From Streptomyces sp. NRRL S-646 (lineage in GTDB: Bacteria; Actinomycetota; Actinomycetes; Streptomycetales; Streptomycetaceae), in assembly GCF_000720765.1 (NCBI RefSeq), contig NZ_JODC01000040.1, forward strand, positions 1 to 31,737: a stretch of DNA of 31,737 bases. Direction: 5' to 3'. Shown here in pieces: positions 1-24,300 of the stretch. The notes beneath the pieces are model-generated. The model worked only from the letters and a program-made list of their open reading frames with translations. It was not told the origin of the DNA and did no database searches. Position 1 is the first letter of the stretch; every line of letters starts with the position of its first letter. The position numbers and the translations under genes were made by a program.

Positions 1-1442
<1,442 letters not shown>

Positions 1443-3010: not shown

Positions 3011-3052
3011 GTGGCGCGCCCGGGCGGACGGAACCCACCCGACGGAGGATTC

Positions 3053-4267: not shown

Positions 4268-4368
4268 CCGCACCGGCCCGCGGGGCGGCGGAACACGGTC
4301 ACGTACCCCTCGCCCTCGGGCCGGTCGCGCACGTACCGGTCGCCCCCGGCCGGTCGCGCGCGTGCACA

Positions 4369-4409
4369 GGCTGCGGGCGCCGTCTCTGTGAGAGGCGGCG
4401 CCCGCAGCC
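4369..4409. terminator. Strong bidirectional hairpin between convergent genes
   Basis: A 14-base arm GGCTGCGGGCGCCG (4369-4382) pairs perfectly with CGGCGCCCGCAGCC (4396-4409), with further CTC/GAG pairing inside the loop. It sits between the stop of the P450 pair (4267) and the stop of the GT39 gene (4436), where a shared rho-independent-type terminator is expected. The following GTCTTGCTTGG is only weakly T-rich, as is common in high-GC actinomycetes. Confidence 0.8.
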
Positions 4410-4435
4410 GTCTTGCTTGGCGCGGGGCGCCCGGC

Positions 4436-6019: not shown

Positions 6020-6347
6020 CGTGACGTCCTCGATCCTGTGGGTCCGCGCCCGAAGAACGGACGCGGATCAGTGAGGTGAACGTACGGTCGGCGACCGTAC
6101 TGGACCGGTTCCTTCCCTCTTTCGCGGACCGGAGTACGGGCGATTCCCTAGTCTTCGGCGTCATTGTTGGCCGTCGCCCGGGCGCCTGTGCTGGGCTGGG
6201 GTTCCGTACCGCACCGCCGCAGAGCGCCCGCGCTCCCGTCACTGTTTCGGCCGTTGCCGGCCGTCGGCGGTCGGACGCGAGGCCTGGCCGACTCCCCTGG
6301 CCGGACCTCGATCCCCCAACCGATCACGGAGAGACGGCAGTCGAGTG
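6020..6347. promoter_or_regulatory. Divergent control region between GT39 and ABC exporter
   Basis: About 330 bases between the leftward membrane glycosyltransferase and the rightward exporter. It carries one copy of the cluster motif (6136-6151) and the GAGGA ribosome site of the glycosyltransferase. No convincing protein-coding frame is seen; open frames crossing it lack ribosome sites and family resemblance. Promoter elements of the exporter could not be placed with confidence. Confidence 0.5.
6136..6151 (+). promoter_or_regulatory. Candidate LuxR-type operator, site C
   Basis: ACGGGCGATTCCCTAG. It fits 12 of 16 positions of CTVGGGAWWTCCCBAG and is close to site B (shared form ACSGGCRAWTCCCTAG). 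It is 117 bases from the GT39 start and 261 from the exporter ATPase start, so it could serve either gene. Confidence 0.45.
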
Positions 6348-6416
6348 ATGGACCTTCAGTTCATGTGCGGCGGGGCCGGGACACGGCCTCGCACGGTCAG
6401 GGCGGGCACGGTATGA
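6348..6416 (+). CDS. Possible 22-codon leader peptide ahead of exporter
   Basis: A short frame from ATG 6348 to TGA 6414-6416 encoding 22 residues (begins MDLQFMCGG). Its stop overlaps the ATG of the ABC ATPase in an ATGA junction, the arrangement typical of translational coupling. The ATPase itself has a poor ribosome site, so coupling would make sense. Against it, the only purine-rich stretch (GGAGAG near 6328) is about 14 bases from this ATG, longer than usual. Seen directly: frame and overlap. Translation is a guess. Confidence 0.3.
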   Translation: MDLQFMCGGAGTRPRTVRAGTV

Positions 6417-7330
6417 CGGCGGCGATCGTCGCGGGCGGCGTCCGCAAGCGGTACGGGGACATCCAGGCCGTCGACGGGGTCTCGCTGCGCATCGAGGCGG
6501 GCGAGTTCTACGGCATCCTGGGTCCCAACGGCGCGGGCAAGACGACCACTCTGGAGATTCTGGAGGGCGTCCGGGAGCCCGACGAGGGCCGTATCGAGCT
6601 GTTCGGCAAGAGCCCCTGGCCGCGCAACCACGAGTTGCTGACCAGGATCGGCGTGCAGTTCCAGGCGTCGTCGTTCTTCGACAAGCTGACCACGCGGGAG
6701 ACGATCCGTCTGTTCGCGTCGTTCCACCGGCTCGGCGCCCGGCAGGCCGACGCGATGCTGGAGCGCGTCGGCCTCACCGAGTTCGGCGGCGTGCCGGCCG
6801 ACAAGCTCTCCGGCGGGCAGGCGCAGCGGCTGTCCATCGCCTGCGGCCTGGTGCACGATCCGGAGATCGTCTTCCTGGACGAGCCGACCGCGGGTCTGGA
6901 CCCGCAGGCCCGCCGGAATCTGTGGGATCTGCTGCGGGACGTCAACCAGGAGGGCCGCACCGTGGTCCTCACCACGCATTACCTGGACGAGGCGGAGATC
7001 CTCTGCGACCGGGTGTCGGTCATGGAGCACGGCAAGGTGCTCAGGACCGGCGCTCCGGCGGCCCTGATCCGTGAGCTGGACCAGATGGTGCGGGTCAGCG
7101 TGGAGTCGGGGCTCGTAGCACCGGACGTGCTGCGGAGCCTGCTGGAGTCCGCGGGGGTGGAGAACACCATCGTGGAGGACGACGGGGTCTCGCTGTCGAT
7201 GGCCACCCACACGCCGGGACCGGTGTTGTCGATCCTGGCCGAACAGGGGGCCCTGCGCGGCCTGGAGGTACGCGGAGCCACTCTGGAGGACGTCTTCCTC
7301 CAGCTGACCGGACGGGAGTACCGCGCGTGA
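6413..7330 (+). CDS. drrA-like: ABC exporter ATP-binding protein (DrrA-like)
   Basis: A 305-residue ABC ATPase of the DrrA family, which powers export of antibiotics and lipids together with a DrrB-type permease. Walker A is GPNGAGKTT (about residues 37-45), the signature LSGGQ is near 132, Walker B is VFLDEPTAGLDP near 153, and the H-loop is in VLTTHYLDEAE. The C-terminal 80 residues are the regulatory tail seen in drug-export ATPases. The ATG at 6413 is chosen because the homologous region begins there; an in-frame GTG at 6365 would add 16 residues. The stop overlaps the permease start (GTGA at 7327-7330). Probably exports the cluster product and gives self-protection. Confidence 0.93.
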   Translation: MTAAIVAGGVRKRYGDIQAVDGVSLRIEAGEFYGILGPNGAGKTTTLEILEGVREPDEGRIELFGKSPWPRNHELLTRIGVQFQASSFFDKLTTRETIRLFASFHRLGARQADAMLERVGLTEFGGVPADKLSGGQAQRLSIACGLVHDPEIVFLDEPTAGLDPQARRNLWDLLRDVNQEGRTVVLTTHYLDEAEILCDRVSVMEHGKVLRTGAPAALIRELDQMVRVSVESGLVAPDVLRSLLESAGVENTIVEDDGVSLSMATHTPGPVLSILAEQGALRGLEVRGATLEDVFLQLTGREYRA

Positions 7331-8502
7331 GCATCGACGACACCACCGCGCCCACCATACGAACGGGCCCGTCCGACCGGAAGGAGCCCGCGGGGAAGGG
7401 CGGTCCGGCTGGCAGGCACACGGCCGGGGACGAGCGACTCAGCCCGGTCCGTGAGCTGTCCCGGACGATGATCCTCAGCGTGCTGCGGGACAAGGGCACG
7501 ATCTTCTTCCTGCTGATCTTCCCGATCCTGTTCCTGCTGTTGTTCGGCACACTCTTCAAGAGCGACGGCACCTCGCACATCAAGGTGGCCCAGGTCGGCG
7601 AGGTGCAGGTGCTGGACTCGCTCACCAAGGGCCAGCGGGAGCAGCTGTCCAAGGCCGCCACGATCACCAAGGCGAGCAGCGAGTCGACCGCACTGGAGAA
7701 GGTGCGCAAGGGCGACTACGACGCGCTGGTCGAACAGGACGGCGGCACCGTGGTGCTGCGCTACAGCGCCGCCGACGCCGTCAAGGGCGCCTCTGCCCGT
7801 GCGACGCTCAACGCGATACTGGAGCAGGCGAACCTGGCCGCGACCGGCAAGCCCGCCACGTACACGTTGAAGGCCAGTCAGGTCGAGGACCAGTCCGTCA
7901 AACCCATCCAGTACCTGACACCGGGTCTGATGGGCTGGGCCATCGCCTCCAGCGCGGTGTTCAGCACCGCGCTGACGCTGGTGACGCTGCGCCGCAAGAA
8001 GATCCTCCAGAGGATGCGGCTGTCGCCCATCCGGGCCTGGGAGGTGGTGGCCGCCCGCATCGCGATGACCATGGTCATGGCGCTCACGCAGACGGCACTG
8101 TTCCTGCTGGTGGCGACGTTGCCGTACTTCGGCCTGCAGCTCACGGGCAACTGGTGGCTGGTGGTTCCGCTGGTGATGTGCGGCACGCTGTCGCTGATGT
8201 CGCTCGGTCTGCTGATCGGCTCGGTCACGAAGACCGAGGAGTCCGCCGGCGGTCTCGCCCAGCTTCTGGTGCTTCCGATGTCCTTCCTGTCCGGGTCGTT
8301 CTTCTCCCTCGACGGCGCCCCGGACTGGCTCCAGGTGATCTCGTATCTGATGCCGTTGCGCTACCTCGTGACGGGCAGTGAGGACGTGCTCAGCCGCGGT
8401 GGCGGCGTGGTGGACGTGCTGCCGACGATGGGCGGCATGCTCGCCTTCACCGCCGTGGTGACCGCGCTGACGCTGCGCTTCTTCAAGTGGAACGACACCT
8501 GA
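7327..8502 (+). CDS. drrB-like: ABC-2 type exporter permease (DrrB-like)
   Basis: A 391-residue ABC-2 family permease paired with the preceding ATPase, its GTG start overlapping the ATPase stop by four bases. After a polar N-terminus of about 45 residues comes a first membrane helix (IFFLLIFPILFLLLFGTLF), then an extracytoplasmic region of about 120 residues rich in Lys and Ser, then a bundle of five more hydrophobic segments. The large outer loop is longer than in the classical daunorubicin DrrB and resembles the ABC2_membrane_3 group. LRRKKILQRMRLSPI is the usual coupling segment before TM3. Transport direction is expected to be outward; the substrate is inferred from cluster context. Its stop is only seven bases from the stop of the convergent nitroreductase-family gene. 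Confidence 0.92.
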   Translation: MSIDDTTAPTIRTGPSDRKEPAGKGGPAGRHTAGDERLSPVRELSRTMILSVLRDKGTIFFLLIFPILFLLLFGTLFKSDGTSHIKVAQVGEVQVLDSLTKGQREQLSKAATITKASSESTALEKVRKGDYDALVEQDGGTVVLRYSAADAVKGASARATLNAILEQANLAATGKPATYTLKASQVEDQSVKPIQYLTPGLMGWAIASSAVFSTALTLVTLRRKKILQRMRLSPIRAWEVVAARIAMTMVMALTQTALFLLVATLPYFGLQLTGNWWLVVPLVMCGTLSLMSLGLLIGSVTKTEESAGGLAQLLVLPMSFLSGSFFSLDGAPDWLQVISYLMPLRYLVTGSEDVLSRGGGVVDVLPTMGGMLAFTAVVTALTLRFFKWNDT

Positions 8503-8509
8503 GTCACCC

Positions 8510-9163
8510 TCAGGTCCGGTCGCTGCCCTGCCAGCCGTCGTGGTGCAGGACCTCCGCCAGCGGCAGCCGTGGCCCCGGCCGGAAGGTGGTGCGCAGCGGA
8601 TAAGCGGTCGGAAGCAGCGCGCCCTGGCGAACGGTGGGTGGCAGGCCCAACAGGTCTGCCACCTCCCGTTCGCGGTCCAGATGGACCGCCGTCCAGGCGG
8701 TGACCAGGCCACGGCTGCGGGCGGCCAGCGCGTAGCTCCAGGCGGCGGGCAGCAGCGACCCCCACACGCCGGCCTGGTTTCCCTGCGGCAGCCGGCCGTC
8801 GGGCAGTTCGAGGCAGGGGATGACGAGGACGGGCACGCGGTGCAGCCGGTCGGCCAGCAGCCGAGCGCCGGTGATCGCGGAACGGGTCCCCTCGGGAAGT
8901 TCGTCCAGCCGCTTCAGCGCGGCGGCGTTGCGGGCGTGGAATGCGGCCCGGTACACCTCGGCGACGTCCGCGCGGATCCGCGGGTCGGTGAGCAGGAGCC
9001 AGCGCCAGTTCTGCCGGTTGTTGCCGTTGGGTGCCTGCAGGGCGATGCGCAGGCACTCCTTGACGAGTTCCGGGTCCACCGCCCGCTCCAGGTCCAGGCC
9101 ACGCCGCACGCAGCGCGTCGTGGTCAGCAACTCGTCGCAGGAAAGGTTTTGTTGAGAGGTCAC
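8510..9163 (-). CDS. Nitroreductase-family FMN oxidoreductase
   Basis: A 217-residue flavoprotein of the nitroreductase fold, last gene of the nine-gene unit. The segment APNGNNRQNWRWLLLTD (about residues 44-60) matches the FMN-binding loop AP-GG-RQPW-F of the family, and the C-terminal GLVTAWTAVHLDREREVADLLGLP is the usual dimer/flavin segment. The GTG start at 9163 overlaps the stop of the UbiA-like gene (GTGA), so the two are translationally coupled. Family members reduce nitro groups, enones, quinones or other electron-poor double bonds. Given the AfsA-like neighbour, reduction of a butenolide-type double bond is one possible role, though known butenolide-phosphate reductases of A-factor pathways belong to another family. 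Substrate not shown by sequence. Confidence 0.85.
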   Translation of the reverse strand: MTSQQNLSCDELLTTTRCVRRGLDLERAVDPELVKECLRIALQAPNGNNRQNWRWLLLTDPRIRADVAEVYRAAFHARNAAALKRLDELPEGTRSAITGARLLADRLHRVPVLVIPCLELPDGRLPQGNQAGVWGSLLPAAWSYALAARSRGLVTAWTAVHLDREREVADLLGLPPTVRQGALLPTAYPLRTTFRPGPRLPLAEVLHHDGWQGSDRT

Positions 9164-10059
9164 GGCAGCAGCACCGCCCGTACCACCAGGGCGAGGTACG
9201 TCATCACGACGAAGCCCATCGCGGTGATCAGTGGCCAGCCGCCGTGACGCCGGGTCAGGAACCGCCGGGTTCCCCACAGGGGCAGGGCCACCGCCAGGCA
9301 GGGCAGCAGCCCCGGCGGGCCGGCCGGCGCGAACAGGACGAGCTGGCAGCCGACCGCCCCGGCCGCGAGACCCGCGGTGACCGACGCGCTGCGCCGGGGG
9401 CCGAGATCCGCGGAGTACAGGCGGGCGCCGGACGCCGCCTCCCAGGCCGTCTTCCGGGCGAACTCGAAGTGCAGGAACACACAGGCGCACAGGGCGAGCA
9501 ACAGCGCCCCGCGCCAGTCGGCGGCGACGGTCCCGGCGGCGGCGAGAGACCCGTACACATAGATGCCCAGCAGCACCTGCACCGGGTAGGTGACCGCGAG
9601 GTTGAGCAACTGCCGGTCGCGTACCGCCGGCGAGAGGCGTTCCAGGGCGGCGAGGAACAGTCCGTAACCGAGGGCCGCCAGGCTCAGCAGGACCGCTGTC
9701 ACCGACAGGGCCGCGTTCAGGCCGGCCACCAGCAGGGTCAGCGCGGCCATGGCGCCGCGCAGTTCGGCCACGGTGATCGCGCCGGTGACCAACGGCCGGT
9801 CCGGGTGGTGCACTCGGTCGTACTCGAGGTCCTTCTGTTCGTCCAGCATCCGCAGGAACAGCAGCGCCAGTACGACGCTGACGACCCGCACCCAGGTGGC
9901 TGCGGACGGCCGCCAGGCCGTGCCGGTCAGCGTCACCGCGGAGCCCTCCAGGGCGAGGACCCACAGCAGTCCGTAGGTGGCGTAGATGTGGGGCCGGAAC
10001 ATCCGCAGCACGAAACGGCCCAGCCGGGCGGGCACTTGGGGCAGGACGACGGTGCTCAC
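9160..10059 (-). CDS. UbiA-superfamily prenyltransferase-like membrane protein with variant motifs
   Basis: A 299-residue polytopic membrane protein with about eight or nine hydrophobic segments. The first Asp motif reads DEQKDLEYD (Asp73, Asp77, Asp81) followed by RVHHPDRPLVTGAIT, which matches UbiA enzymes in layout (NDxxDxxxD in classical members) with Asp-Glu replacing Asn-Asp. The expected second DxxxD motif is replaced by EFARKTAWEAASGARLYS, a pattern I associate with a subgroup of unassigned UbiA-like proteins. Classical members join a prenyl diphosphate to an aromatic or glycerol-type acceptor in the membrane. GTG at 10059 overlaps the AfsA-like stop (GTGA). It could prenylate a product of this operon or be a repurposed member. 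Fold fairly sure, reaction unknown. Confidence 0.8.
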   Translation of the reverse strand: MSTVVLPQVPARLGRFVLRMFRPHIYATYGLLWVLALEGSAVTLTGTAWRPSAATWVRVVSVVLALLFLRMLDEQKDLEYDRVHHPDRPLVTGAITVAELRGAMAALTLLVAGLNAALSVTAVLLSLAALGYGLFLAALERLSPAVRDRQLLNLAVTYPVQVLLGIYVYGSLAAAGTVAADWRGALLLALCACVFLHFEFARKTAWEAASGARLYSADLGPRRSASVTAGLAAGAVGCQLVLFAPAGPPGLLPCLAVALPLWGTRRFLTRRHGGWPLITAMGFVVMTYLALVVRAVLLP

Positions 10060-11033
10060 CGGGCCGCCCCCCGGCCGGCGAGTACGCCTGTCAGGCCGGC
10101 CGCGGTCCGCTCGGCGAGCCTGACGCGGGCCTCGGCGACCAGGGCGCCGGGCTGGTGCAGGGTGCACTCGATGTCGGCGCCGGGCAGCACCGCAGCGGCC
10201 CGGCACTCCAGGGGCAGGTCCATCTCGGCGAAGCGGCGGAACCGGACGGAGAGACCGACCGGCAGCGCCGTCGGGGTGCGGACCGTGCCCGCGGCCACGG
10301 CGGCGGTCAGCGCCAGCTGCCGAAAGGCCTCCAGCTCCACCATGCCGGGCACATGGTCGACCCAGTGGTCGTACAGGGTCGGGTGGCTGGTCTCGGCGAC
10401 CAGGCGTGCGGTGGTCACGCCTTCTTGCGAGGTGTACGGCGCTGAGACGACCACGTTGGCCTGGTTCCGCCGGCCCACCAGGGCGGGGTCGACGCGCGGG
10501 CCGGGCAGCGCGACCGGGGGCTCGGACAGGCCGAGTGCGTCGCGCTGCCCGGCCCGCAGACGCGTCCAGTCCTGCGCCGGCATCCACGAGTATTCGATGC
10601 GGGCGAGCAGAGCCTGGCGCGTGCCGATGGCCACAGTGAAACGCAGCCGGAGCCCCGTCACCCCTGACCGGCTCCGGATCCGGTGCTCGACACGGACGCC
10701 GATGACGGCTTCGGTGGGGCTGTCACCGGGCACCAGGGCGGCCGGGTCCGGCACCTCGAACTCCACCGTGCGGAGCAGGAACCTGTGGCCGAGGGGCACG
10801 TCGAGGTGGCGGTGGGCGACCACGTAGATGCCCTGCCGGCATGCCTCCAGCAACAGCAGGGGGTCGTGGTGGGTGCGGGGGCCGAGGACGTCGTCGTAGA
10901 AGGGGTGGAGGCGTGGCAGCTGCGCGGCGAGCAGTGTCTCGTCCTCGCTGAGGCGCTCCGCGTCGGTCAGGAAGACCTCGGCGATCGCTGCCCGGTGCAC
11001 CAGCTCCTTCGGGAGTGTCCGGGCGAACTGCAT
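10056..11033 (-). CDS. AfsA/ScbA/BarX-like acyltransferase (two hot-dog repeats)
   Basis: A 325-residue protein with the two tandem AfsA hot-dog repeats. AfsA proteins transfer a beta-ketoacyl chain from ACP to dihydroxyacetone phosphate, the first step of gamma-butyrolactone and related furan signals. The first repeat has DPLLLLEACRQGIYVVAH (Glu63, Arg66) and the second MVELEAFRQLALTAA (Glu235, Arg238): the LEAxRQ core recurs in both halves, as in true AfsA enzymes, so both sites look intact. ATG at 11033 has GAGGAG six bases upstream. It sits 14 bases after the NDPK-like gene and overlaps the UbiA-like gene. No TetR-type butyrolactone receptor gene is beside it, which argues for a structural or biosynthetic role rather than a simple signalling cassette. 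Confidence 0.88.
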   Translation of the reverse strand: MQFARTLPKELVHRAAIAEVFLTDAERLSEDETLLAAQLPRLHPFYDDVLGPRTHHDPLLLLEACRQGIYVVAHRHLDVPLGHRFLLRTVEFEVPDPAALVPGDSPTEAVIGVRVEHRIRSRSGVTGLRLRFTVAIGTRQALLARIEYSWMPAQDWTRLRAGQRDALGLSEPPVALPGPRVDPALVGRRNQANVVVSAPYTSQEGVTTARLVAETSHPTLYDHWVDHVPGMVELEAFRQLALTAAVAAGTVRTPTALPVGLSVRFRRFAEMDLPLECRAAAVLPGADIECTLHQPGALVAEARVRLAERTAAGLTGVLAGRGAAR

Positions 11034-11047
11034 GGGCTGCTCCTCGT

Positions 11048-11980
11048 TCAGGTCAAGTCGGCGCGGACGGCGTTGAGATGGCGGCGCCAGGCGTCGGTGC
11101 CGGCCCCGTCGAGGACCGGGGCGCGGCCGGGCTGCCGCATGGGCAGCACCTTGGAGCCGACGATGACGGTGTCCCACGGGTCGAGGTCGATCCCGAGGTC
11201 CCAGGCCGACTCCAGGAGCTGGCGCGGGGTGGCGGCCGGGTCGAGGCCGGGGTGGCGGGAGACGGCGGCGCGCAGCCGTTCGGCAGCGGGCTCGAAGTCG
11301 AGTTCACGGGGCTTGGTGGCGGCGTAGAGCTGGTCGGCCAGCTCCAGGGCGTGCCCGGTGCGGTCCTCGTCCGCAAGCGCGGAGCGGATGAGGCGGTCGC
11401 GTTCGGCGTCGTCGAAGTGGACGGCCAACTCGCGTAGGACGTCGGCGGGTTCGTCGGGGGTGTGCACCAGGTTGAGCAGGTAGCTGTAGCGGCCGAGGAG
11501 GTGGCGCAGCTGGCCGGGCCGGCGGGCCTCGGGGTCGGTGGGCCCCTTGAGCCGGGTGAGTTCGACCGAGGCGGGGACGTCGGGTTCGTGGGCGGGGCGG
11601 ACGAGCAGGACGAGGGCGTCGGCGTCCTCCAGGAAGAGGGCGGCGAGCCTCCTGCGGTAGGGGGTGGCGAGGTTCCACTGGAAGTACCACAGGGAGCGGA
11701 TCATGGTGCGGGTCAGCCGGGTGACCGCCGCGCCGACGATCCGGTAGCCCTGTCCGGTCAGCCAGTCCACGGCCGCGTCCAGCCTGCGGGCGACCACGGC
11801 GTCCGGCTTCAGCAGCAGGGCGGCGTGGCGGTGGGCGAATCCGGTGACGTCGTCGGTGAGGGCGGCGAGCTGTTCGTAGCTCTCCTGGTAGTAGGTGTCC
11901 GCGCCGTACAGCCGCAGTTTTTCGGTACTGCAGCTCAGCAGCGGCGATATCGCGATGCCGTGGTTCGGTTCGGCGGTCAT
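11048..11980 (-). CDS. Divergent nucleoside-diphosphate-kinase-like protein with C-terminal extension
   Basis: A 310-residue protein whose central part (about 50-195) follows the NDP-kinase fold: AALLLKPDAVVARRL (Lys58) corresponds to the N-terminal KPD motif, LKGPTDPEARRPGQLR to the GATNPxxAxPGTIR loop, and NLVHTPDEPADVLRELAVHF to the NIIHGSDSxExAxxEIxxxF helix. The phosphoacceptor His is therefore kept (His173), but much else has diverged, and there is an extra N-terminal segment of about 50 residues plus about 115 residues at the C-terminus. NDP kinases are normally about 135-150 residues. ATG at 11980 overlaps the preceding stop in ATGA. Possible roles are phosphoryl transfer to a pathway intermediate or binding of a nucleotide-activated one. 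Family link judged by eye. Confidence 0.7.
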   Translation of the reverse strand: MTAEPNHGIAISPLLSCSTEKLRLYGADTYYQESYEQLAALTDDVTGFAHRHAALLLKPDAVVARRLDAAVDWLTGQGYRIVGAAVTRLTRTMIRSLWYFQWNLATPYRRRLAALFLEDADALVLLVRPAHEPDVPASVELTRLKGPTDPEARRPGQLRHLLGRYSYLLNLVHTPDEPADVLRELAVHFDDAERDRLIRSALADEDRTGHALELADQLYAATKPRELDFEPAAERLRAAVSRHPGLDPAATPRQLLESAWDLGIDLDPWDTVIVGSKVLPMRQPGRAPVLDGAGTDAWRRHLNAVRADLT

Positions 11981-13077
11981 GGCCGGTGGCTCCCCTCCGG
12001 TCGGGCGGACGCGGCGGCGGTCTCCCTGCGCGCTGCGGCGCCCAGGTAGCCGGACCGCAGGCAGTGGTCCAGGAGTCTGCGCAGGTACGGGCTGCCGCCC
12101 GTGGGGGCGGGTCGGTGGCTGAAGGCCACGGTGTCGGTGTTGTCGAAGTGGATCCGGCGGCGCATGTAGGTGGCGTAGAGCGAGATGACCCGCTCGTGGT
12201 AGAGGCGTTCGCTGTCCGGGAGGGCGTCTGCGGAGAAGACGGCGGGTGGTATCCACCGCGGTACCTGGAAGGAGGGGTACTCGGCGAGCACGTCGGAGAG
12301 GTCACGCAGGGTCACGGCCCGGCCGCCGGTGGCGTGCAGGGTCCGGCCCCGGGCGTCCTCGAAGCGTGTCGCGGCCTCGACGATCAGATCCGCGACGTAG
12401 TCGACGGGCACCAGGTCGAGGAGGGCGTCGTAGTTCCCGGGGACGGTCCTGACCCGTCCGCTGGTCGTCAGCCGGACGACCGGGTACATGGTCTTGTAGT
12501 CGCGGACGCGGCCGGTACGCCGGTCGCCGGTGACGATGCTCGGCCGGACCACGGCGACGGGCAGGCCGTCCGCTGCCGCCCCGCGCACCAGGACCTCCGC
12601 GCGCAGCTTGCTCTTCTCGTAGTCGTTGCCGAACCGCTGGCCGACGTCGAGTTCGTCCTCACGGGCGGTGCCGTCCCGCTCCCCGCACACATAGGCGGTG
12701 CTCACGTGCACCAGCGGCACTCCATGGGCCTGTGCCAGGGCCAGGACGTTCTCGGTTCCGGTGACGTTGATGTCCTGGTAGATCTGTGCGGGGCGGCCGA
12801 AGTCGGTGATTCCGGCGCAGTGGACGATCCGGTCCGCGCCGGCGGCCAGGCGAAGCTGCTCGGCGTCCAGGCCCAGTGCGGGGCGGGTGATGTCTCCGGC
12901 GAGCCGGGTCAGGGTGCCCGGTCGCGGCTTCAGTGTTCTGCCGTTGTTGCGGACGATGTCGCCGTTGCTGTGCAGCAGGGCCAGCACCGAGTGCCCTGCC
13001 GTGATGAGCCTGGCGGTGACTTCGGCGCCCAGGAACCCGCTGGCGCCGGTGACCAGAACGGTCATCCCTGCGGTCAT
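11977..13077 (-). CDS. Extended SDR resembling thioester (acyl) reductases
   Basis: A 366-residue NAD(P)-binding protein of the extended SDR type. The dinucleotide motif is TGASGFLG (residues 10-17), the catalytic Ser/Thr lies in VHVSTAYVCGE (Ser126), and the YxxxK pair is Tyr153-Lys157 in NDYEKSKLRAE. The combination HVSTAYVxG plus YxxSKxxAE and VVRPSIVTGD is typical of the NAD_binding_4 group, which includes carboxylic acid reductase and NRPS/PKS release domains and fatty acyl reductases that turn a carrier-bound thioester into an aldehyde or alcohol. ATG 13077 is used; ATG 13065 is possible. The stop overlaps the NDPK-like start. Alternative: a sugar epimerase/dehydratase, less likely from the motif spelling. 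Confidence 0.8.
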   Translation of the reverse strand: MTAGMTVLVTGASGFLGAEVTARLITAGHSVLALLHSNGDIVRNNGRTLKPRPGTLTRLAGDITRPALGLDAEQLRLAAGADRIVHCAGITDFGRPAQIYQDINVTGTENVLALAQAHGVPLVHVSTAYVCGERDGTAREDELDVGQRFGNDYEKSKLRAEVLVRGAAADGLPVAVVRPSIVTGDRRTGRVRDYKTMYPVVRLTTSGRVRTVPGNYDALLDLVPVDYVADLIVEAATRFEDARGRTLHATGGRAVTLRDLSDVLAEYPSFQVPRWIPPAVFSADALPDSERLYHERVISLYATYMRRRIHFDNTDTVAFSHRPAPTGGSPYLRRLLDHCLRSGYLGAAARRETAAASARPEGSHRP

Positions 13078-13199
13078 CGGCTCTGCCTGCCGGGGGCGTG
13101 GGATGTCGAGTGCACGTGTTTCTCCAGTCGTCGGACGGTGGTCGGAGGGTCGGGCAGTCGGGCAGGAGGAGCGGGAGACCGCGGACCGCGGTCATGCCG
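13078..13199. other. Largest gap inside the nine-gene unit, with small hairpin
   Basis: A 122-base spacer between the nucleotidyltransferase stop and the SDR start; all other junctions in this unit are 55 bases or less. At 13177-13193 GACCGCG and CGCGGTC form a 7-bp stem with a 3-base loop just past the nucleotidyltransferase stop. It could attenuate or protect a processed transcript; it is too short to call a terminator. No reading frame of note. Confidence 0.3.
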
Positions 13200-14837
13200 T
13201 CATGCCGCCTGGTGGGGCTGGGCTCCGCTGCTGGCGACCAGGTCGCGGACCTCCTGGAGCGGCAGCTCCGCGTCGAAGTGGGCCGCGACACGCACCCAGT
13301 CGTGGCCGAGCTCCAAGGTGGCCCGCCAGGTGTCGGCGGAGTCGAAGGAGGCGGGGAAGGCGTCGGCCCCGGCGGCCTGCCGCACCAAGCCGATGAACTG
13401 CTCCAGTTCACGCAGTACGGCCTCGGCACGCTCGGGCGAGTCGATGCTGACCCGGGACAGGGTGTTCGCGAGCGTACGGATCGACTGGATGCCGGGGGGC
13501 AGCAGGGAGAGCCTGCGGACCAGGTCGCAGTCGGCGGGCAGCGGACTGACCCCGTAGGCGCAGAGCAGTCCCCGCAGTGCGCTCTGGGCCGCGCGGCGCG
13601 CACTGACCTCGGCGACCTTCCACTGCCCTTGGCGGAGGGCGCCCGCCAGGTCCTCCCGGGCGTTCTCGACCACCATGTTGGAGAAGGCCAGTGCCAAGGC
13701 GGCCGCGGCGAACCGGTCGGCGGGCAACGGGACCAGGTCGACGGCGTCGGGGCCGCTGACCGCTGCTCCGCGCAGCGACAGCAGCGGCCGGGCGGTGCCG
13801 GGGGGCGGGGTGAGGGGGCCGGGGGGCGAGGCCAGCGGCAGGGCCGGGGCGACCGTGCCGCCGCCCTTCCAGGCCAGCCGCACCAGTCCCAGCCGCAGGA
13901 AGTGCGCCAGAAGGGGGCCGGCTTCCGCCGCTCCGGTGGCACGGGCGTTCGCCAGCACCCGGGGCAGCGGTGTGCCCAGCACCAGCGAGCGCCAGACCTG
14001 GCCGGCCCGCTCGCCGAGCACGAACACATCGCGCCGGCCGCGGACGACATGGACGCGTTCCGACGTCTGCCAGGTGGTCACACCCTTCTGGCGTTCCACG
14101 GTCAGCCGCGCCGGATCCCGCTGTACGCCGGTGACGCCGAGTTCCGCGGCGAACTCCACACAGGCGCCGAGGTAGTCGTCCGCAGCCACGTCGGGTCCGG
14201 CGGACTCCAGTTCCCAGTAGCGGTCACGGACGTCGGGCCGGTCCGCCCGGTCCAGCTGCAGGGACAGCCACTTGGGCTCCAGATAGGTCTCGCCCCGCCC
14301 GGCGGCCCAGGCCTTGACCGCCTGCACCAGTCCGGCGCGGGCCCAGTCCATCGCCTCCTCGGGCTCGTCGAGGCACATCATCGCCGTCGCATGGCGCAGG
14401 GACTGTCTGGCGGAGTGCGCCCACCAGGCCGCGGCGATGCTGCCCAGCCGTTCGGCCGGGAGCAGGCTCTTGACCTCGTCGACCAGGGCGTGACCGCGCA
14501 ACGGGACGCTGTTGAGCAGTCGCTGACAGCGGTTCAGCAGATCCTCGGGGATCCTGCCGACGCGCTTGGCGCCGGTCTCCAGGGCGGCGAACTGCTCGGT
14601 GAGCTGGCGCAGCGAACGGGTGCGGATCTCGACCCGCCTGCCGTCGACGAAGAACAGCGACGGCATGGTCGGCAGGTCGTCCTCGTCACGGCCGATGAGC
14701 AGGAAGTCGATGTCCGACCCGGGATTGCCGAAGCCTTCGGCGATGGATCCTTCGAGCACCACGGCCCAGTCGCCGGTGCGCACCTGTGTCAGTGTCTTGT
14801 CGAGCAGGTCCTGCAGATATTCCTCGGTGAGGATCAA
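13200..14837 (-). CDS. Large protein with N-terminal nucleotidyltransferase domain
   Basis: A 545-residue protein whose N-terminus has a minimal nucleotidyltransferase (pol-beta superfamily) signature: VVLEGSIAEGFGNPGSDIDF, with Gly30-Ser31 and the metal-binding Asp42 and Asp44. Such domains transfer NMP groups to hydroxyls of antibiotics, proteins or metabolites. The remaining 400 residues are mostly helical, Ala/Leu/Arg-rich, with no family I recognise; residues about 110-200 could be a helical NTase substrate domain. The start is a TTG at 14837 with GAAAGG upstream and 31 bases after the PEP-enzyme stop; no other start gives a better fit. It follows the phosphohistidine enzyme in the operon, which suggests sequential work on one substrate. 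Activity and target are unproven. Confidence 0.75.
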   Translation of the reverse strand: MILTEEYLQDLLDKTLTQVRTGDWAVVLEGSIAEGFGNPGSDIDFLLIGRDEDDLPTMPSLFFVDGRRVEIRTRSLRQLTEQFAALETGAKRVGRIPEDLLNRCQRLLNSVPLRGHALVDEVKSLLPAERLGSIAAAWWAHSARQSLRHATAMMCLDEPEEAMDWARAGLVQAVKAWAAGRGETYLEPKWLSLQLDRADRPDVRDRYWELESAGPDVAADDYLGACVEFAAELGVTGVQRDPARLTVERQKGVTTWQTSERVHVVRGRRDVFVLGERAGQVWRSLVLGTPLPRVLANARATGAAEAGPLLAHFLRLGLVRLAWKGGGTVAPALPLASPPGPLTPPPGTARPLLSLRGAAVSGPDAVDLVPLPADRFAAAALALAFSNMVVENAREDLAGALRQGQWKVAEVSARRAAQSALRGLLCAYGVSPLPADCDLVRRLSLLPPGIQSIRTLANTLSRVSIDSPERAEAVLRELEQFIGLVRQAAGADAFPASFDSADTWRATLELGHDWVRVAAHFDAELPLQEVRDLVASSGAQPHQAA

Positions 14838-14868
14838 GGGGAGTGCCTTTCGTCCTGGGAGTGCGGAT

Positions 14869-17592
14869 TCAGGGCCGGCTGTCGGCCGGGGGCTCCGGCT
14901 CGGCCAGCACGGTGACGGTGCCGGCGGCGCCGTCGACCCGCACCCGGGTGCCGGAGCGGATCTCGGTGGTGACGTTCCTGACCTGGACCACGGTGGGGAT
15001 GCCCAGTTCCCGGGCCACCACGGCGACATGGGTGAGCGGGCTGCCGCGTTCGATGACCAGCGCGGCGGCCGAGGGCAGCGCGGCCACCCAGCCGGGGTCG
15101 GTGCGGTAGGTGAGCAGGATTCCGCCGCCGATGTCGCGCGGGGTGTCGGTGACGACCGCGGGTCCTTCGGCGACACCGGGGCAGCAGGGGGTGCCGCGCA
15201 GTTCCCGGGCGCCGCTGCGGGCGGCGGGCCCGCCGGTCCAGCCGGCCCGCTCGAGGTTGCCCGACCAGTACGGGGCGCCGTGGGTGGTGAAGCGGGCCGG
15301 GGCGTGCAGCTCGGCGTCGGCGGCGAGTTGCCTGCGGCGCAGTGCGGCCAGCTCCTTCAGCTCCGTGTGGGCGATCATGCCCTCGTAGGCGCCCCGGACC
15401 TCCTCCAGGCGCAGCATGAACACGTCGTCCCAGGTGTCGATGGCCCCGGTGCGTGCGAGGTCGCGGCCGATGGCGCGCAGCATGCGCTTGGCCGAGCCGA
15501 ATGCCCGGGTGCGGCAGAACCTGAGCCGTTCACGGTCGGTGAGCGCGGCCCGGGCCTTGTTCCGCACCCGTTCGTACAGCCGGCGTCGGGGACCGCGCAG
15601 ATGCTGGTCGAGATACGTGTCCGCCTCGCCGCCGCGGTCACCCGCGCCGCGGCCGGCGGCCCCGGGCTGTGCGTCACGCAGCAGGGTGAACAGCCCGGCG
15701 GGGTTCTCGTGCAGGTCGGGGACTTCGAGCTTGAGTTCGTCCGGACTGCGGTAACCGTAGTCGGCGACGTACGCGTCCACGGCGGCCAGGAACTCGCCGT
15801 GCCCCGCCTCGCGCAGCGCCCGGTAGGCGTCTGCGTCGGGGGTGCGGTCCAGTAGCTGTCGCACCTCGGCGTCGGCGCTCGCCTTCGCGGCCAACTCTGC
15901 CAGCGCCCAGGCGGGTTCGGCGGACTCGACATCCTGGCCCGGGGCCGCCGCGGCCCAGGTGAACCACTCGGGGGCGTCGGGCAGCCAGCGGCGGGTGAGC
16001 AGGGCCAGCAGGCCGACGGAGAGCAGGATGGTGGCGTCGAGGGCCTGCATCGGCCCCCACTTCTCGATGAGTTCCCGCTGCATCCGGCGGAAGCGGCGGT
16101 AGGTTTCGTCACCGGGCAGCGCGTCGTAATCGACGTTGTTGAACACCTCGTACGCCCGGTAGAAGTCCCGGTGGAAGGTGTCCATCGCTTTCCGGATCGT
16201 CAGGAACCGTCCGGTGAAGATCGCCGTGCGGACCAGTCGCGCCATTCGGCCGCGCAGCCCGGGCCGGGGTGTGAAGGGGTGGAGCGTGTCCGCGGTCTCG
16301 TCGGAAATGCTCTCCGCGACACCCAGCGATTTCTCCAGGACCCGGCGGTTGAGGGGGTACAGCGGTGCCAGGCGCACCATGCGGTACCAGTGGTGGAGGT
16401 TGTAGTAGACCCGTCCGTGGACATAGCCGAGCAGATGCGGGGTCCACTCCTGGACCTCGCGCAGCTTCTCGCCCCTGACGCCCAGGGCGCGGGCGTAGCT
16501 GTCGTACACCTTGGCGTAGGTGTCGGCGGCGAAGCTGTAGGTGAGCGGGGAGACGACGCCGCTGAAGCTCTCGATGATGTTGGAGTTGTCCCAGAGCCGC
16601 AGTTCGCCCTGGGGTTCCGGCGCGGGGCCGAGGGTGGTGACGGGGCGGCTCTGCAGCACCCACAGGGTGCCGTCGGCGATGGCCCACTCGATGTCCTGCG
16701 GGGCGCCGTAGTGTGCCGTGGCGCGCACTCCGACCGCGTGCAGCCGGGCCAGGTCGTCGGTGGTCAGGGACAGCGCCTTGCGGTCCTCGTCGGCGACCGG
16801 CGACACCTCGCAGCCGGGTCCGGTGCCGGCGTCGTAGCGCTCCTGCTTGTCGCCGATCACGGTGCTCAGCAGGTCACCGGTGGCGGCGTCGAGTACGACG
16901 GTGTCGGCGTCGACCGCCCCGGAGACCAGCCCCTCCCCCAACCCGTGGACGGCGCTGATCACATGGCGGTCCGTGCGGCCGGCCGTCGGATCGGCGGTGA
17001 ACAGCACGCCGCTGCGCTCCGCGGGCACCATGCGCTGGACGATGACGGCGACTCCGCCGGTACCGGGTGGCAGTCCCCGCTGCGCGCGGTAGCGCAGGGA
17101 CCGTTCGGAGAATCCGGAGGCCCAGCACCGGCGGACGTGGGCGGTGACCTGGTCGAGGCCCGAGATGTTGAGGAAGCTGTCGAACTGCCCGGCGAAGGAG
17201 TGCTCGGTGCCGTCCTCCTCCGCTCCGGACGAGCGGACGGCCACCAGGCCGCCGCCGGCCTGTGTGTAGGCCAGCGCGATGGCCGCGGCGATGTGCTCGT
17301 CGAGGGGCGCGGCCTCGATCAGTAGGGCGATCTCGGCGGCGATCTGTCCGGCCCTGCTCTCCCAGTCTTCGTCGAGCCGGCTTTCCAGACGCTCGTCCAG
17401 CCCGCTGCCGCGGGAGAACGCGGCGAAGGCATCGAGGCCGATCACCGACCAGCTCGGCACCTGGAATCCGGCGGCGGTGAGGGTGTGGAGGTTTCTTCCT
17501 TTGCCTCCGGACAGTTCGGCGATCACATCCTCCTCACTGGACGGAGTGAGAACGTGCGGGGGCGGGCGGTCCGATTCCGCGTGGTACGACAA
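14869..17592 (-). CDS. PEP-utilising phosphohistidine swivel enzyme (PEP synthase / rifampin phosphotransferase-like)
   Basis: A 907-residue protein with the order ATP-grasp domain, middle domain, C-terminal phosphohistidine domain. The N-terminal PPDK-type ATP domain shows GGKGRNLHTLTAAGFQVPSW (Lys31), VAVRSSGAEEDG, and QDIEWAIADGTLWVLQSRPVTT near residues 325-345. The middle begins LWDNSNIIESFSGVVSPLT, as in rifampin phosphotransferase-like proteins. Near the end GSPLTHVAVVARELGIPTVV carries the phosphoacceptor His855. The pyruvate-binding TIM barrel of true PEP synthase is absent, so the enzyme should pass a phosphate from ATP to a small molecule rather than make PEP. TTG start at 17592 has GGAGG eight bases upstream. 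Rifamycin itself is not implied. Probable role: phosphorylation of a pathway intermediate, or self-protection. Confidence 0.85.
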   Translation of the reverse strand: MSYHAESDRPPPHVLTPSSEEDVIAELSGGKGRNLHTLTAAGFQVPSWSVIGLDAFAAFSRGSGLDERLESRLDEDWESRAGQIAAEIALLIEAAPLDEHIAAAIALAYTQAGGGLVAVRSSGAEEDGTEHSFAGQFDSFLNISGLDQVTAHVRRCWASGFSERSLRYRAQRGLPPGTGGVAVIVQRMVPAERSGVLFTADPTAGRTDRHVISAVHGLGEGLVSGAVDADTVVLDAATGDLLSTVIGDKQERYDAGTGPGCEVSPVADEDRKALSLTTDDLARLHAVGVRATAHYGAPQDIEWAIADGTLWVLQSRPVTTLGPAPEPQGELRLWDNSNIIESFSGVVSPLTYSFAADTYAKVYDSYARALGVRGEKLREVQEWTPHLLGYVHGRVYYNLHHWYRMVRLAPLYPLNRRVLEKSLGVAESISDETADTLHPFTPRPGLRGRMARLVRTAIFTGRFLTIRKAMDTFHRDFYRAYEVFNNVDYDALPGDETYRRFRRMQRELIEKWGPMQALDATILLSVGLLALLTRRWLPDAPEWFTWAAAAPGQDVESAEPAWALAELAAKASADAEVRQLLDRTPDADAYRALREAGHGEFLAAVDAYVADYGYRSPDELKLEVPDLHENPAGLFTLLRDAQPGAAGRGAGDRGGEADTYLDQHLRGPRRRLYERVRNKARAALTDRERLRFCRTRAFGSAKRMLRAIGRDLARTGAIDTWDDVFMLRLEEVRGAYEGMIAHTELKELAALRRRQLAADAELHAPARFTTHGAPYWSGNLERAGWTGGPAARSGARELRGTPCCPGVAEGPAVVTDTPRDIGGGILLTYRTDPGWVAALPSAAALVIERGSPLTHVAVVARELGIPTVVQVRNVTTEIRSGTRVRVDGAAGTVTVLAEPEPPADSRP

Positions 17593-17647
17593 CTGACTTC
17601 CCTCCGAAGGGACTTGTCGAATTCTGAATTCCGTCGGCCGTTCACCC

Positions 17648-18856
17648 TCAGGACAGGACGATCGGCAGGGTCTCGTGGCCGCGCAGGAAGAGCCGGTCCC
17701 GGCGGGTCGGCGCGGCTCCGGGAGCGGGGCCGAGAGCGGGGAAGCGGCACAGCAGCCTGCCGAAGGCGGTGGTGGCCTCCAGCCGGGCCAGCAGGGCACC
17801 GAGGCAGTAGTGCGCGCCGCCGCCGAAGCTGAGCGGCTGGATGTCCTGACGGTGGGGATCGAAGCGATCGGGGTCGTCGTAGCGGGCCGGATCGCGGTTG
17901 GCGGCGCCCAGCAGCACCACCACATGGCTCCCCGCCGGAACCGGCAGGCCCCCGATCGAGACGCCGTCCGCCAGCACGACCCGGTGGCTGAGCTGCACCG
18001 GTGAGTCGTAGCGCAGCACCTCGTCGACGAAGCCCTGCAGCGGGACGGTCCCGGCCCGCAGACCGGCCATCACGTCGGGGTGCTCGCAGAGCAGGTGCAG
18101 GCCGTTGCCGAGGAGGTAGGTGGTGGTCTCGAAGCCGGCCAGCAGCACGGTGGTGAGGTTGGCGACGAGTTCGTCGTCGTCCAGCCGCGTCTCCTGGTCC
18201 GGTTCCCGTACGAGGGCGGTCACCAGGTCGTCGCGCGGATCGGTCCGGCGTGCCTCGGCGAGCGCGGTGAAGTAGTGACCGACCTCCACCGCCGCCCGGT
18301 CGGCGGCGTCGAGACCGGAGGGGTCGGCCAGCAGTTCCAGAATGGCCGACAGATCGGCGGCGAAACCGCGGAAGCGGTGACGGTCCGCGGTCGGCACCCC
18401 GAACAGTTCGCAGATGATCTGGACCGGCAGGGAGAAGGCGAAGGCGTCCATGAACTCCACCGGGGCGGAGCCGCCCTCCGCGAGGCCGTCGAGCAGGGCG
18501 TCGGTGGTGCGCACGATCTCCGCTTCCAGGGCGGCCACCCGGCGGGCGGTGAACACTTGGGACATCGACGACCGCAGCCGCCCGTGGTGCGGCGGGTTGG
18601 CCACCAAGAGGGACCGGCTCAGCAGGGCCAGCGAGGGATGCTCATCGATGTCGGCACCCCAGGTCATCATGGCGAGGTCGGCGCCCAGACCCGGGTGGCG
18701 CAGGGCCTGTCGACAGGCTTCGTAGCCGCAGACCAGCACCATGCCGTCGCCGGCCGGCATCACGGGCCCCAGTTCATGGGCGCGGGCGTACAGCGGGTAG
18801 GGATCGGCCCGTCCCTCGGGTGTCAGTAGGTGCGCGATGATCGACTCCGCGTCCAC
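17648..18856 (-). CDS. Cytochrome P450
   Basis: A 402-residue class I P450, second gene of the nine-gene unit. Helix I is AGFETTT with the usual acid-Thr pair, the ExxR motif is in DEVLRYDSPVQ, and the heme loop is FGGGAHYCLGALLAR. HHGRLRSSMSQVFTARRVAALE is the helix C region with the heme-propionate His/Arg pair. The GTG start at 18856 is set by AAGGAGG five bases upstream; 40 bases separate it from the KAS III stop. By position it should oxidise an acyl or butenolide-type intermediate of the unit rather than the finished macrolide, but the sequence does not decide this. Confidence 0.95.
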   Translation of the reverse strand: MDAESIIAHLLTPEGRADPYPLYARAHELGPVMPAGDGMVLVCGYEACRQALRHPGLGADLAMMTWGADIDEHPSLALLSRSLLVANPPHHGRLRSSMSQVFTARRVAALEAEIVRTTDALLDGLAEGGSAPVEFMDAFAFSLPVQIICELFGVPTADRHRFRGFAADLSAILELLADPSGLDAADRAAVEVGHYFTALAEARRTDPRDDLVTALVREPDQETRLDDDELVANLTTVLLAGFETTTYLLGNGLHLLCEHPDVMAGLRAGTVPLQGFVDEVLRYDSPVQLSHRVVLADGVSIGGLPVPAGSHVVVLLGAANRDPARYDDPDRFDPHRQDIQPLSFGGGAHYCLGALLARLEATTAFGRLLCRFPALGPAPGAAPTRRDRLFLRGHETLPIVLS

Positions 18857-18896
18857 GGGGCCTCCTTGACGTGGTGGGGGGGTTCGGGGCGTTGAT

Positions 18897-19904
18897 CTAG
18901 TTCCGGTGCGGTCCGAGACGGGGCCACACCAGGGCCAGCGACCCCCAGGTGAGGCCGCCGCCGAAGCCGGCCAGCACCACCTTGTGTCCGGGCCGCAACT
19001 CGCCGGAGGCGACACCGTCGGCCAGGGCGAGGGGGATCGAGGCGGCGACGGTGTTGCCCCGCGTACCGATGTTGGAGAGGAACCGCTGCGGCGGCAGCGC
19101 GAGCCGGCGGGCGACCGCGGTCAGGATCCGGGCGTTGGCCTGGTGCAGCACGAAGGAGTCGATCTCCTCCAGGCACCATCCGGTGCGCGCCGCGGTCTCC
19201 CGTACCGACTCCGTCATCCGCCGCACGGCCTGCGCGTAGACGGCCTGCCCCTGCATCGTGAAGTAGGTGTCCTCGGTCTTGGCGGGCAGTCCCGTGGACC
19301 GCTGCCGGGACCCGCCCGCCGGCACCTCGATCAGATCGCTGAGGCTCCCGTCACTGCCGAGGTTCAGCCCCATGAGCGCTCCGGGCTCGGCCGGCGACCC
19401 GGCACGCAGCACCACCGCACCGCCGCCGTCGCCGAAGATCACCCGGGTCGTGCGGTCGTCCGGGGCGAGGATGGTGGAGAACGCGTCCGCGCCGATGACG
19501 AGCACGCGGTCGGCGGCCCCGAGCGCGACCATGCCGGCGCCGGTCGCGAGGCCGTACACGAAGCCCGTGCACACCGCGGCCACGTCGAACGCGGCGACAG
19601 GTCCGAGTCCCAGTCGGCCGGCCACCTCGGGCGCGGTCGCGGGGCAGTGCCGGTCCGGGGAGCTGGTGGCGAGGACCACCGCGTCCACGGCCTCCGTACC
19701 GGCTGACGACAGCGCCCGTCGCCCGGCCTCGACGGCCAGATCGCCCGTGGACCGGCCCGGAGAGACCCAGCGTCGCTCGCGGATGCCGGTACGGCTGCGG
19801 ATCCACTCGTCGCTGGTGTCGAGGGCTCTCGCGAGTTGGTCGTTGGTGACGACCGTGGGGGGCACCCAGCCCCCGAGTCCCGTGACGACTGCCGCTCGTT
19901 CCAT
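18897..19904 (-). CDS. Beta-ketoacyl-ACP synthase III (FabH-like)
   Basis: A 335-residue thiolase-fold condensing enzyme. The triad is complete and in register with E. coli FabH: Cys112 in AAVCTGFVYG, His254 in LHQANARI, Asn284 in RGNTVAASIPLAL. SDEWIRSRTGIRERRW (residues 31-46) is the family CoA-binding loop. FabH enzymes join an acyl-CoA to malonyl-ACP. As first gene of the nine-gene unit it probably makes a beta-ketoacyl-ACP, the type of substrate that the AfsA-like enzyme in the same unit would consume. ATG at 19904 has AAGGAG nine bases upstream; further N-terminal extension lacks family resemblance. It is not a housekeeping fabH: no fabD, acpP or fabF lies beside it. Confidence 0.93.
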   Translation of the reverse strand: MERAAVVTGLGGWVPPTVVTNDQLARALDTSDEWIRSRTGIRERRWVSPGRSTGDLAVEAGRRALSSAGTEAVDAVVLATSSPDRHCPATAPEVAGRLGLGPVAAFDVAAVCTGFVYGLATGAGMVALGAADRVLVIGADAFSTILAPDDRTTRVIFGDGGGAVVLRAGSPAEPGALMGLNLGSDGSLSDLIEVPAGGSRQRSTGLPAKTEDTYFTMQGQAVYAQAVRRMTESVRETAARTGWCLEEIDSFVLHQANARILTAVARRLALPPQRFLSNIGTRGNTVAASIPLALADGVASGELRPGHKVVLAGFGGGLTWGSLALVWPRLGPHRN

Positions 19905-20417
19905 GGCCTCCGACTCCTTCCCAACCCGACAGCCACCCAGGACCGCAGGACGGGCCCGGATCAACGAATTCACCGAGGTGGACCGCGCGCCTGCGGGGTC
20001 CGGCGGCGCCTGGATGCCCTCTGTCTCGGGTCGCCCCGCTCGATGGCCGCGCTCGCCTCGCGCTCGCCACGTCCGGCGTCGTGCGGGCGAAAACGCCGCG
20101 GCCGGTGAGGCGAAGAGCCCAACTTCCTCGCGCGCCGGTTCTCCGGCCGTGGCAGTCGGCTCACATCGCATTGTCGAGTGCGGAGCCGCCGGGCGAATCC
20201 GTCAGGTGACTGCACTGCGCCGGATGCAGTCGCTGCGGTCACCGTCCGCCTTGCTCGCCGTGTCGTCGGAAGGGCGGTGGCGGCGACGCGGCGGACTTTC
20301 CAGGGGATTCCTTAGAGCCCCGTGACGAGGGACGAAGGCGCGCGGCAGGGCCGGGATATCGTCCGTCGATGTCACACGCCGCGCACGGAGCCAGAACTCA
20401 AGGAGGCGTTGTTGACC
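19905..20417. promoter_or_regulatory. Divergent control region between KAS III unit and LAL regulator
   Basis: A region of about 510 bases, the longest non-coding stretch here, driving the nine-gene unit leftward and the LAL regulator rightward. It contains operator-like site D (20300-20315), 103 bases before the LAL ATG and 396 from the KAS III ATG, and the LAL ribosome site AAGGAGG at 20400-20406. A GTG-started frame from 20322 is in frame with the regulator but lacks a ribosome site and abuts site D. I see no other repeat or RNA-like structure of note. Confidence 0.55.
20300..20315 (+). promoter_or_regulatory. Candidate LuxR-type operator, site D
   Basis: CCAGGGGATTCCTTAG, the most symmetrical of the four sites and a 13 of 16 fit to CTVGGGAWWTCCCBAG. 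It lies 103 bases before the LAL regulator start in the same orientation as site B before the P450. Autoregulation of the LAL gene or activation of the divergent KAS III unit are both possible. Confidence 0.45.
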
Positions 20418-24219: not shown

Positions 24220-24264
24220 GGTCTCGCTCTCTTCCGGCTCTTGCCAAGGATGCGCCGACGTGCC

Positions 24265-24300
24265 GTCACGCCGACCTGAACTGTCACGCCGACCCGAACT
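24265..24300. repeat. 18-bp tandem duplication across the PKS stop codon
   Basis: GTCACGCCGACCTGAACT (24265-24282) is followed at once by GTCACGCCGACCCGAACT (24283-24300), one mismatch in 18. On the coding strand the PKS ends QFGSA-stop and is followed by an in-frame QFRSA-stop copy. It therefore duplicates the last codons and stop of the docking tail. Confidence 0.85.

Follow-up and report, generated by a model that had tools for sequence, protein, structure and literature searches.

Natural phosphotriesters are rare, and we know of no account that settles their formation in bacteria step by step. The short literature listings consulted (titles and abstract starts) say nothing otherwise, and no title or abstract start in them describes the gene set considered here or a cyclophostin gene cluster. 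Salinipostins, the products of a marine bacterium, are butyrolactones with an unusual phosphate ester. According to an excerpt of one source, cyclophostin and the cyclipostins have a common bicyclic enol-phosphate core, the cyclipostins vary in the ester chain, and the salinipostins are structurally related (PMC6681047). The salinipostin (spt) operon of S. tropica, a butyrolactone cluster of 11.1 kb, is given as RS20900-RS20940 in an excerpt of a second source (PMC7888443). The present analysis concerns nine coupled genes of Streptomyces sp. NRRL S-646 that resemble this operon and lie between polyketide synthase (PKS) genes. The window, that is the whole stretch analysed, is one entire contig of 31,737 bases (NZ_JODC01000040.1) from a genome of 10.7 Mb in 163 contigs. 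The nearest named relative found was Streptomyces sp. HD.

A sequence-only reading of this DNA had described nine leftward genes coupled by three 4-base overlaps. Nine minus-strand genes were confirmed at 8510-19904 by Pfam, NCBIfam and start sites, and their coordinates, families and overlaps were as described. From upstream to downstream they are:

18897-19904, minus strand: KAS III (FabH-like), accessory gene (Pfam, NCBIfam, motifs)
17648-18856, minus strand: cytochrome P450, accessory gene (Pfam, solved structures)
14869-17592, minus strand: phosphoenolpyruvate (PEP)-synthase/rifampin-phosphotransferase-like dikinase with PPDK_N and PEP-mobile (swivel) domains, core gene (Pfam, NF004881)
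13200-14837, minus strand: nucleotidyltransferase, NTP_transf_2, with GS..SDxD, core gene (Pfam, alignment, fold search)
11977-13077, minus strand: thioester-reductase-like short-chain dehydrogenase/reductase (SDR), core gene (Pfam, TIGR01746 similarity)
11048-11980, minus strand: nucleoside diphosphate kinase-like (NDK) protein with a C-terminal extension, core gene (Pfam, alignments, motif)
10056-11033, minus strand: AfsA/ScbA-family butyrolactone synthase, core gene (Pfam, NF041195, tree)
9160-10059, minus strand: UbiA-like membrane transferase, core gene (Pfam below cut-off, alignment, model, fold searches)
8510-9163, minus strand: nitroreductase-like flavoprotein, core gene (Pfam, PDB relatives)

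The last seven genes, dikinase to nitroreductase, are referred to as the core, and KAS III and P450 as accessories. The 4-base overlaps are exact at 11977-11980 (SDR/NDK), 10056-10059 (AfsA/UbiA) and 9160-9163 (UbiA/nitroreductase); the remaining gaps are 40, 55, 31, 122 and 14 bases.

Comparison with the closest known operon indicates that the unit is probably a variant of the salinipostin-type pathway that has been set into a modular PKS cluster. When the 397 genomes of the order of genome G003 were searched with the dikinase model NF004881, ten scored above the cut-off, the best being G578 with 1489 bits. The locus in that genome (L157, 4.714-4.726 Mb) consists of nine genes encoding a dikinase, an AMP-ligase, a nucleotidyltransferase, an acyl carrier protein (ACP), an SDR, an NDK-like protein, a UbiA-like protein, a luciferase-like oxidoreductase (PF00296) and AfsA. 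From the expected dikinase start to the AfsA stop it spans 11,131 bases, and the listed start codons give 11.05-11.2 kb. G578 is a closed genome in a single contig of 5,183,331 bases, which we take to be the size of the Salinispora tropica CNB-440 genome. Scaling by locus tags puts the salinosporamide (sal) cluster at 1.157-1.190 Mb, and a gene of PF01887, presumably the family of SalL, lies at 1.163 Mb in G578. Because of the nine-gene span of about 11.1 kb, the genome size and the PF01887 gene in the scaled sal interval, we infer that L157 is the spt cluster of S. tropica CNB-440. The clusters of the L124 type, described below, were also considered as spt and set aside: no Salinispora was named in their UbiA family search, which gives names for some quarter of proteins only, and their gene content differs from that of L157.

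The window and L157 share the dikinase (55% identity), nucleotidyltransferase (47%), SDR (54%), NDK-like (39%), UbiA-like (40%) and AfsA (33%) genes, with the order dikinase-nucleotidyltransferase-SDR-NDK in both. In contrast, UbiA precedes AfsA in L157, whereas AfsA precedes UbiA in the window, where KAS III and P450 have been added and the set lies between PKS genes. There are gaps of 31 and 122 bases where the acyl ligase and the free ACP would be expected, and neither an AMP-binding protein nor a free ACP was found among the Pfam-scanned open reading frames (ORFs) of the window. The luciferase-like (F420-type) oxidoreductase was not among these ORFs either; a nitroreductase was found instead. 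In the AfsA tree, AfsA of L157 joins those of L124, L160 and L161 (96/90) and not the window type, which suggests that operons alike in other respects have swapped their AfsA. Since the ligase, the ACP, the luciferase-like oxidoreductase and an AfsA of the same clade were all looked for and not found, we class the unit as a variant of the spt type rather than a strict member. The sequence-only reading knew of no described pathway with this combination, a statement that is not supported, six of the nine genes having homologues in the putative salinipostin cluster; a wholly undescribed set was rejected after the comparison with the G578 operon. A published pathway thus appears to use this set to a large extent, though not exactly.

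The catalytic motifs of the core proteins are largely kept. The dikinase scores 1110 bits with NF004881 against a cut-off of 883 and has an ATP-binding domain and a swivel domain with the catalytic His (TH motif), as in rifampin phosphotransferase and PEP synthase; its PDB relatives 5hv2, 5hv1 and 5fbs are named PEP synthase in the search output and are, we assume, rifampin phosphotransferase. ANT(4')/kanamycin nucleotidyltransferase was the best match in the fold search with the nucleotidyltransferase, and HEPN matches appeared only at E > 0.1; as the model is of moderate confidence (pLDDT 77), the nucleotidyltransferase match alone was used. This protein is free-standing in the window and fused to the AMP-ligase in L019 and L021, the two loci checked with Pfam. 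Similarity of the SDR to TIGR01746 falls under that model's cut-off, its best solved relative is MxaA, and the YxxxK motif is kept in all 83 sequences. NxxH is kept in the NDK-like proteins (84/86 by pattern). AfsA passes the ScbA/BarX model NF041195 with 225 bits against a cut-off of 200, and no relative was found for it among solved structures. The UbiA-like protein scores 29.3 bits in Pfam, under the family's cut-off of 34.2 bits, and has the UbiA superfamily fold (model pLDDT 93; fold searches). UbiA aromatic prenyltransferases are expected to carry two Asp-rich motifs. DxxxDxxxD is present in 84 of 84 UbiA-like proteins; the second Asp-rich motif was not found in them, and E[FL][AG]RK (ExxRK) stands at that place, further on, in 82 of 84. 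Among the accessories, KAS III has the catalytic CTG and HQAN motifs, and the solved relatives of the P450 include EryF and PikC.

To place the core among its relatives, genome contigs were searched with an NDK-like profile. The search gave 122 relatives, of which the best 80 were read and 42 weaker ones left out; five loci were added from a class sample of 394 genomes, giving 85 loci in all. Since every locus was fetched via the NDK-like gene, the presence of that gene is given, and three places seem to have been fetched twice (L018/L051, L019/L078, L020/L084). The dikinase, nucleotidyltransferase, SDR, NDK, AfsA and UbiA genes are all present in 80 of the 85 loci, and in the loci listed they stand in one order. 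Loci with the core span Streptomyces, Kutzneria, Rhodococcus, Nocardia and others. The five exceptions are L050, L058 and L065, which are cut by the contig end, and L086 and L099, which are dikinase-NDK pairs. In these two Nocardia loci the pair are the sole core genes and the swivel domain lacks the TH motif; to judge from this sequence, the dikinase may be inactive. Within the class sample the profile matched eight genomes, six of which, including the window's own, carry the core. In the family of G017 (possibly Frankiaceae) it matched none of 35 genomes, an empty answer that is not proof of absence. The dikinase had partial matches below 60% identity in 53 records of a plasmid collection, none covering 80%.

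The 80 complete loci fall into two forms. AMP-ligase and ACP are both present in 56 and both missing in 24, and are never found singly; therefore, they probably act as one step. In the ligase-bearing loci (for example L042 of Kutzneria, L057 of Rhodococcus rhodnii and L078 of Nocardia) the core order is as in the window, with the AMP-ligase ahead of the nucleotidyltransferase and the ACP ahead of the SDR; in L157 the AMP-ligase and the nucleotidyltransferase are separate. Unlike the window, these loci have no window-type KAS III or P450 adjoining the core. Of the 80 complete loci, 54 have the nitroreductase, ahead of or behind UbiA; among the 56 with the ligase it is present in 31.

Three of the core genes recur together outside the core. 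A UbiA query with a Micromonospora protein had matches in 11 of the 394 class-sample genomes, all of them among the 14 that match the dikinase model at E <= 1e-100, and each of the 11 also has an AfsA gene within the same 20 kb. Twenty-one loci were then scanned with hidden Markov models of the dikinase, UbiA and AfsA, built in this analysis and partly trained on L123, L124, L125 and L157. The trio was found together in ten loci (L123, L124, L125, L126, L127, L157, L160, L161, L162, L181), nine of which carry partners other than those of the core. At least three arrangements besides the core recur: AfsA-dikinase-UbiA (L123), dikinase-UbiA-...-AfsA-KAS III (L124, L160, L161, L181) and AfsA-dikinase-UbiA-P450-nitroreductase (L125-L127, L162). 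Clusters of the second of these arrangements share with the window the trio and a KAS III that is 67-75% identical; in contrast to the window, no core nucleotidyltransferase, SDR or NDK was found in them, L124 has ACP and KAS II genes, and further genes of these clusters are unassigned. The UbiA-AfsA interval of L124 (12600-16121) encodes, by eye, P-loop kinase-like, HIT-like and 414-residue proteins, without a Pfam match in the three pieces scanned.

The full trio is missing from the other 11 loci. Eight of them have the dikinase without UbiA and AfsA (L128, L129, L130, L158, L159, L163, L086, L099), and L023-L025 have only an NDK relative, a distant one without core partners within 20 kb. 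In these samples UbiA implies the dikinase and not vice versa. The dikinase alone was rejected as a marker of the set: L128, L129, L130, L159 and L163 lack the nucleotidyltransferase, NDK, UbiA and AfsA in the stretch read, L128 also having a weak SDR-like match. In L159 and L163 (G416 and G394) the dikinase is above the NF004881 cut-off and no core partners were found within the 20 kb read. L158 (G712:C18) has P450, ACP, SDR, dikinase and nucleotidyltransferase genes, with none of NDK, AfsA and UbiA in 20 kb, so that half of the set stands alone there. The window's genome has four more AfsA genes (L026-L028, on G000:C48, C11 and C10), with no dikinase or UbiA in the stretches read.

The accessories are less widely shared. 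Within 10 kb of NDK, six of the 80 loci have KAS III (>60% identity) and six have a P450 (>=50% identity, one a 99-residue fragment). KAS III had a match at E <= 1e-90 in 74 of 150 Streptomyces genomes, and the family is therefore common. After the window itself, the top four matches have 89, 85, 75 and 74% identity, and all of them (L179, L180, L181, L124) lie beside AfsA, UbiA and/or dikinase genes; the 89% match is from S. griseoruber, which is also present in the other locus set. Among the nine next matches read (L182-L190, 63-67%), AfsA adjoins in one (L186). Outside Streptomyces, the KAS III genes of L160 and L161 (67-68%) are beside AfsA. The idea of the sequence-only reading that AfsA receives a beta-ketoacyl-ACP from KAS III is supported by the neighborhoods of these top matches.

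The PKS setting noted from the letters alone was also borne out, with PKS genes on either side of the unit and on the same strand. The main features of the surroundings are:

24284-31735, minus strand: modular PKS subunit (KR-ACP, then KS-AT-DH-KR-ACP; AT with HAFH motif), open at the contig end (Pfam, motifs)
20322-23198, plus strand: LuxR/LAL-type regulator (AAA_16 and GerE), divergent from the unit (Pfam)
3-1607, minus strand: start of another PKS subunit (docking domain and KS), cut by the contig end (Pfam)

A GFO/IDH/MocA oxidoreductase gene at 23227-24387 (minus strand) adjoins the PKS gene and is 81-86% identical in L048, L059 and L180. The interval 1802-8502 has two P450 genes (P450a and P450b), a PMT-family membrane protein and a DrrA/B-like ATP-binding cassette (ABC) exporter pair, genes that are conserved in seven macrolide-linked loci (P450a and P450b >=88%), the PMT gene being missing in L048. 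A frame designated ORF1p (84-1574, plus strand) was rejected as a gene; it is antisense to the PKS KS, and its matches mean only that similar DNA is present.

Flanks were counted up to 10 kb from the NDK gene in both directions, a short stretch, so that the counts are lower bounds. The ABC transporter, P450a and P450b flanks were found in 7 of the 80 loci (L038, L045, L046, L048, L049, L053, L059) and a PKS KS in four; L179, which covers the place of L038 and extends further upstream, does contain a PKS KS. L048 and L059 have the LuxR gene directly next to the dikinase, with no window-type KAS III or P450 between. A tree of 25 concatenated cores, one inner fork of which has a support of only 0.215, did not place the macrolide-linked members in one clade. 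The window and HD, whose NDK-like proteins are 99% identical, form a group with S. djakartensis (1.000), in which no macrolide-type flanks were seen over the stretch read. S. bungoensis, which like S. griseoruber carries the linked form, is grouped with unlinked strains (0.855). HD aside, the nucleotidyltransferase and SDR of the window are closest to those of S. djakartensis (82 and 81%), while AfsA and NDK are closer to others; therefore, the unit looks mosaic.

One alternative considered is that the product is an ordinary gamma-butyrolactone signal of the A-factor kind that regulates the macrolide cluster, the phosphate and nucleotide enzymes serving resistance or salvage. The unit has an AfsA-family synthase, as the A-factor/ScbA clusters do, and this synthase scores above the ScbA/BarX cut-off; a LuxR/LAL regulator gene runs divergently, and PKS genes lie on both sides. 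However, an ArpA-type receptor would be expected next to the synthase in a classical locus, and no TetR/ArpA-type receptor was found among the 18 ORFs scanned with Pfam, a part of the ORFs of a short contig. Furthermore, AfsA is accompanied across genera by the dikinase, nucleotidyltransferase, SDR, NDK and UbiA, and a plain butyrolactone needs none of them; we know of no phosphate-ester enzymes in the classical A-factor/ScbA route. Such a signal is therefore considered an unlikely product.

A unit that builds a butyrolactone- or glycerol-phosphate-derived group for attachment to the macrolide would account for a set placed between PKS genes on one strand, for the flanks common to seven loci and for the loss of the ligase and ACP, which calls for an acyl donor from elsewhere. 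However, macrolide-type flanks or a PKS KS were seen in a minority of the loci, a lower bound given the short stretches read and the KS in L179; the macrolide-linked members are not one clade; and some Streptomyces loci have the ligase-free form but show no such flanks as far as they were read. The suggestion, one of several in the sequence-only reading, that these genes finish a macrolide side group is not supported, and we regard that role as improbable. That independent small operons without a common product have come together by chance would suit the loosely associated KAS III and P450. For the core this is contradicted by six genes that keep one order in 80 of 85 loci across several genera, and by the 4-base overlaps; for the unit as a whole it is scarcely credible.

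The salinipostin-type reading thus appears the most probable, and within it the unit would be a self-contained signal or inhibitor pathway and probably not a macrolide tailoring step; the best reading of the genes is that they make a gamma-butyrolactone phosphate ester or phosphotriester. From the homology, gene order and motif retention observed, we infer the following course. KAS III would make a short beta-ketoacyl-ACP. The chemistry of AfsA, the joining of a beta-ketoacyl group to dihydroxyacetone phosphate, is established and would give a butenolide phosphate, which the nitroreductase, in place of the luciferase-like oxidoreductase of spt, would saturate to the butanolide phosphate. The SDR could reduce a fatty acyl thioester to the alcohol, and the dikinase, the NDK-like enzyme and the nucleotidyltransferase could phosphorylate and activate either the alcohol or the butanolide phosphate. 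Linking alcohol and butanolide through the phosphate would then fall to the UbiA-like membrane enzyme; the enol oxygen may attack to form a bicyclic phosphotriester, and the P450 would oxidise the chain. A common enol-phosphate core with varying chains, as the excerpt cited above describes it (PMC6681047), fits a conserved phosphate-joining engine with an exchangeable chain supply.

Several points weigh against this assignment. The absence of the ligase and ACP leaves the source of the alkyl chain unexplained, and the AfsA proteins of the window and L157 share only 33% identity and belong to different clades. The identification of the G578 locus as spt is itself indirect, and PF01887 alone is weak evidence for it: there is a second match in G578 at 1.578 Mb, and the family is present in 8 of 14 control genomes. 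Moreover, we know of no product for the window or its close relatives, and the order of the reactions is our own proposal.

The recurrence of the trio in at least three further arrangements, and the presence of ExxRK in UbiA proteins that keep DxxxDxxxD, are new here. Because the trio recurs in this way and UbiA has ExxRK in place of the second Asp-rich motif, the dikinase and UbiA are suggested to be phosphoester-forming enzymes. More tentatively, the dikinase, UbiA and AfsA might be the smallest working set behind a broader class of butyrolactone phosphoester pathways, with salinipostin biosynthesis as one branch. The UbiA-like protein would then form a phosphate ester bond and not prenylate, and the window might be a branch that has dropped ligase and ACP and recruited KAS III and P450 for an undescribed product. 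The dikinase and UbiA recur with AfsA while other genes come and go, and they are therefore the first names on a short list of candidates. A pathway of the spt type can lie within a PKS cluster and could there be taken for macrolide tailoring genes.

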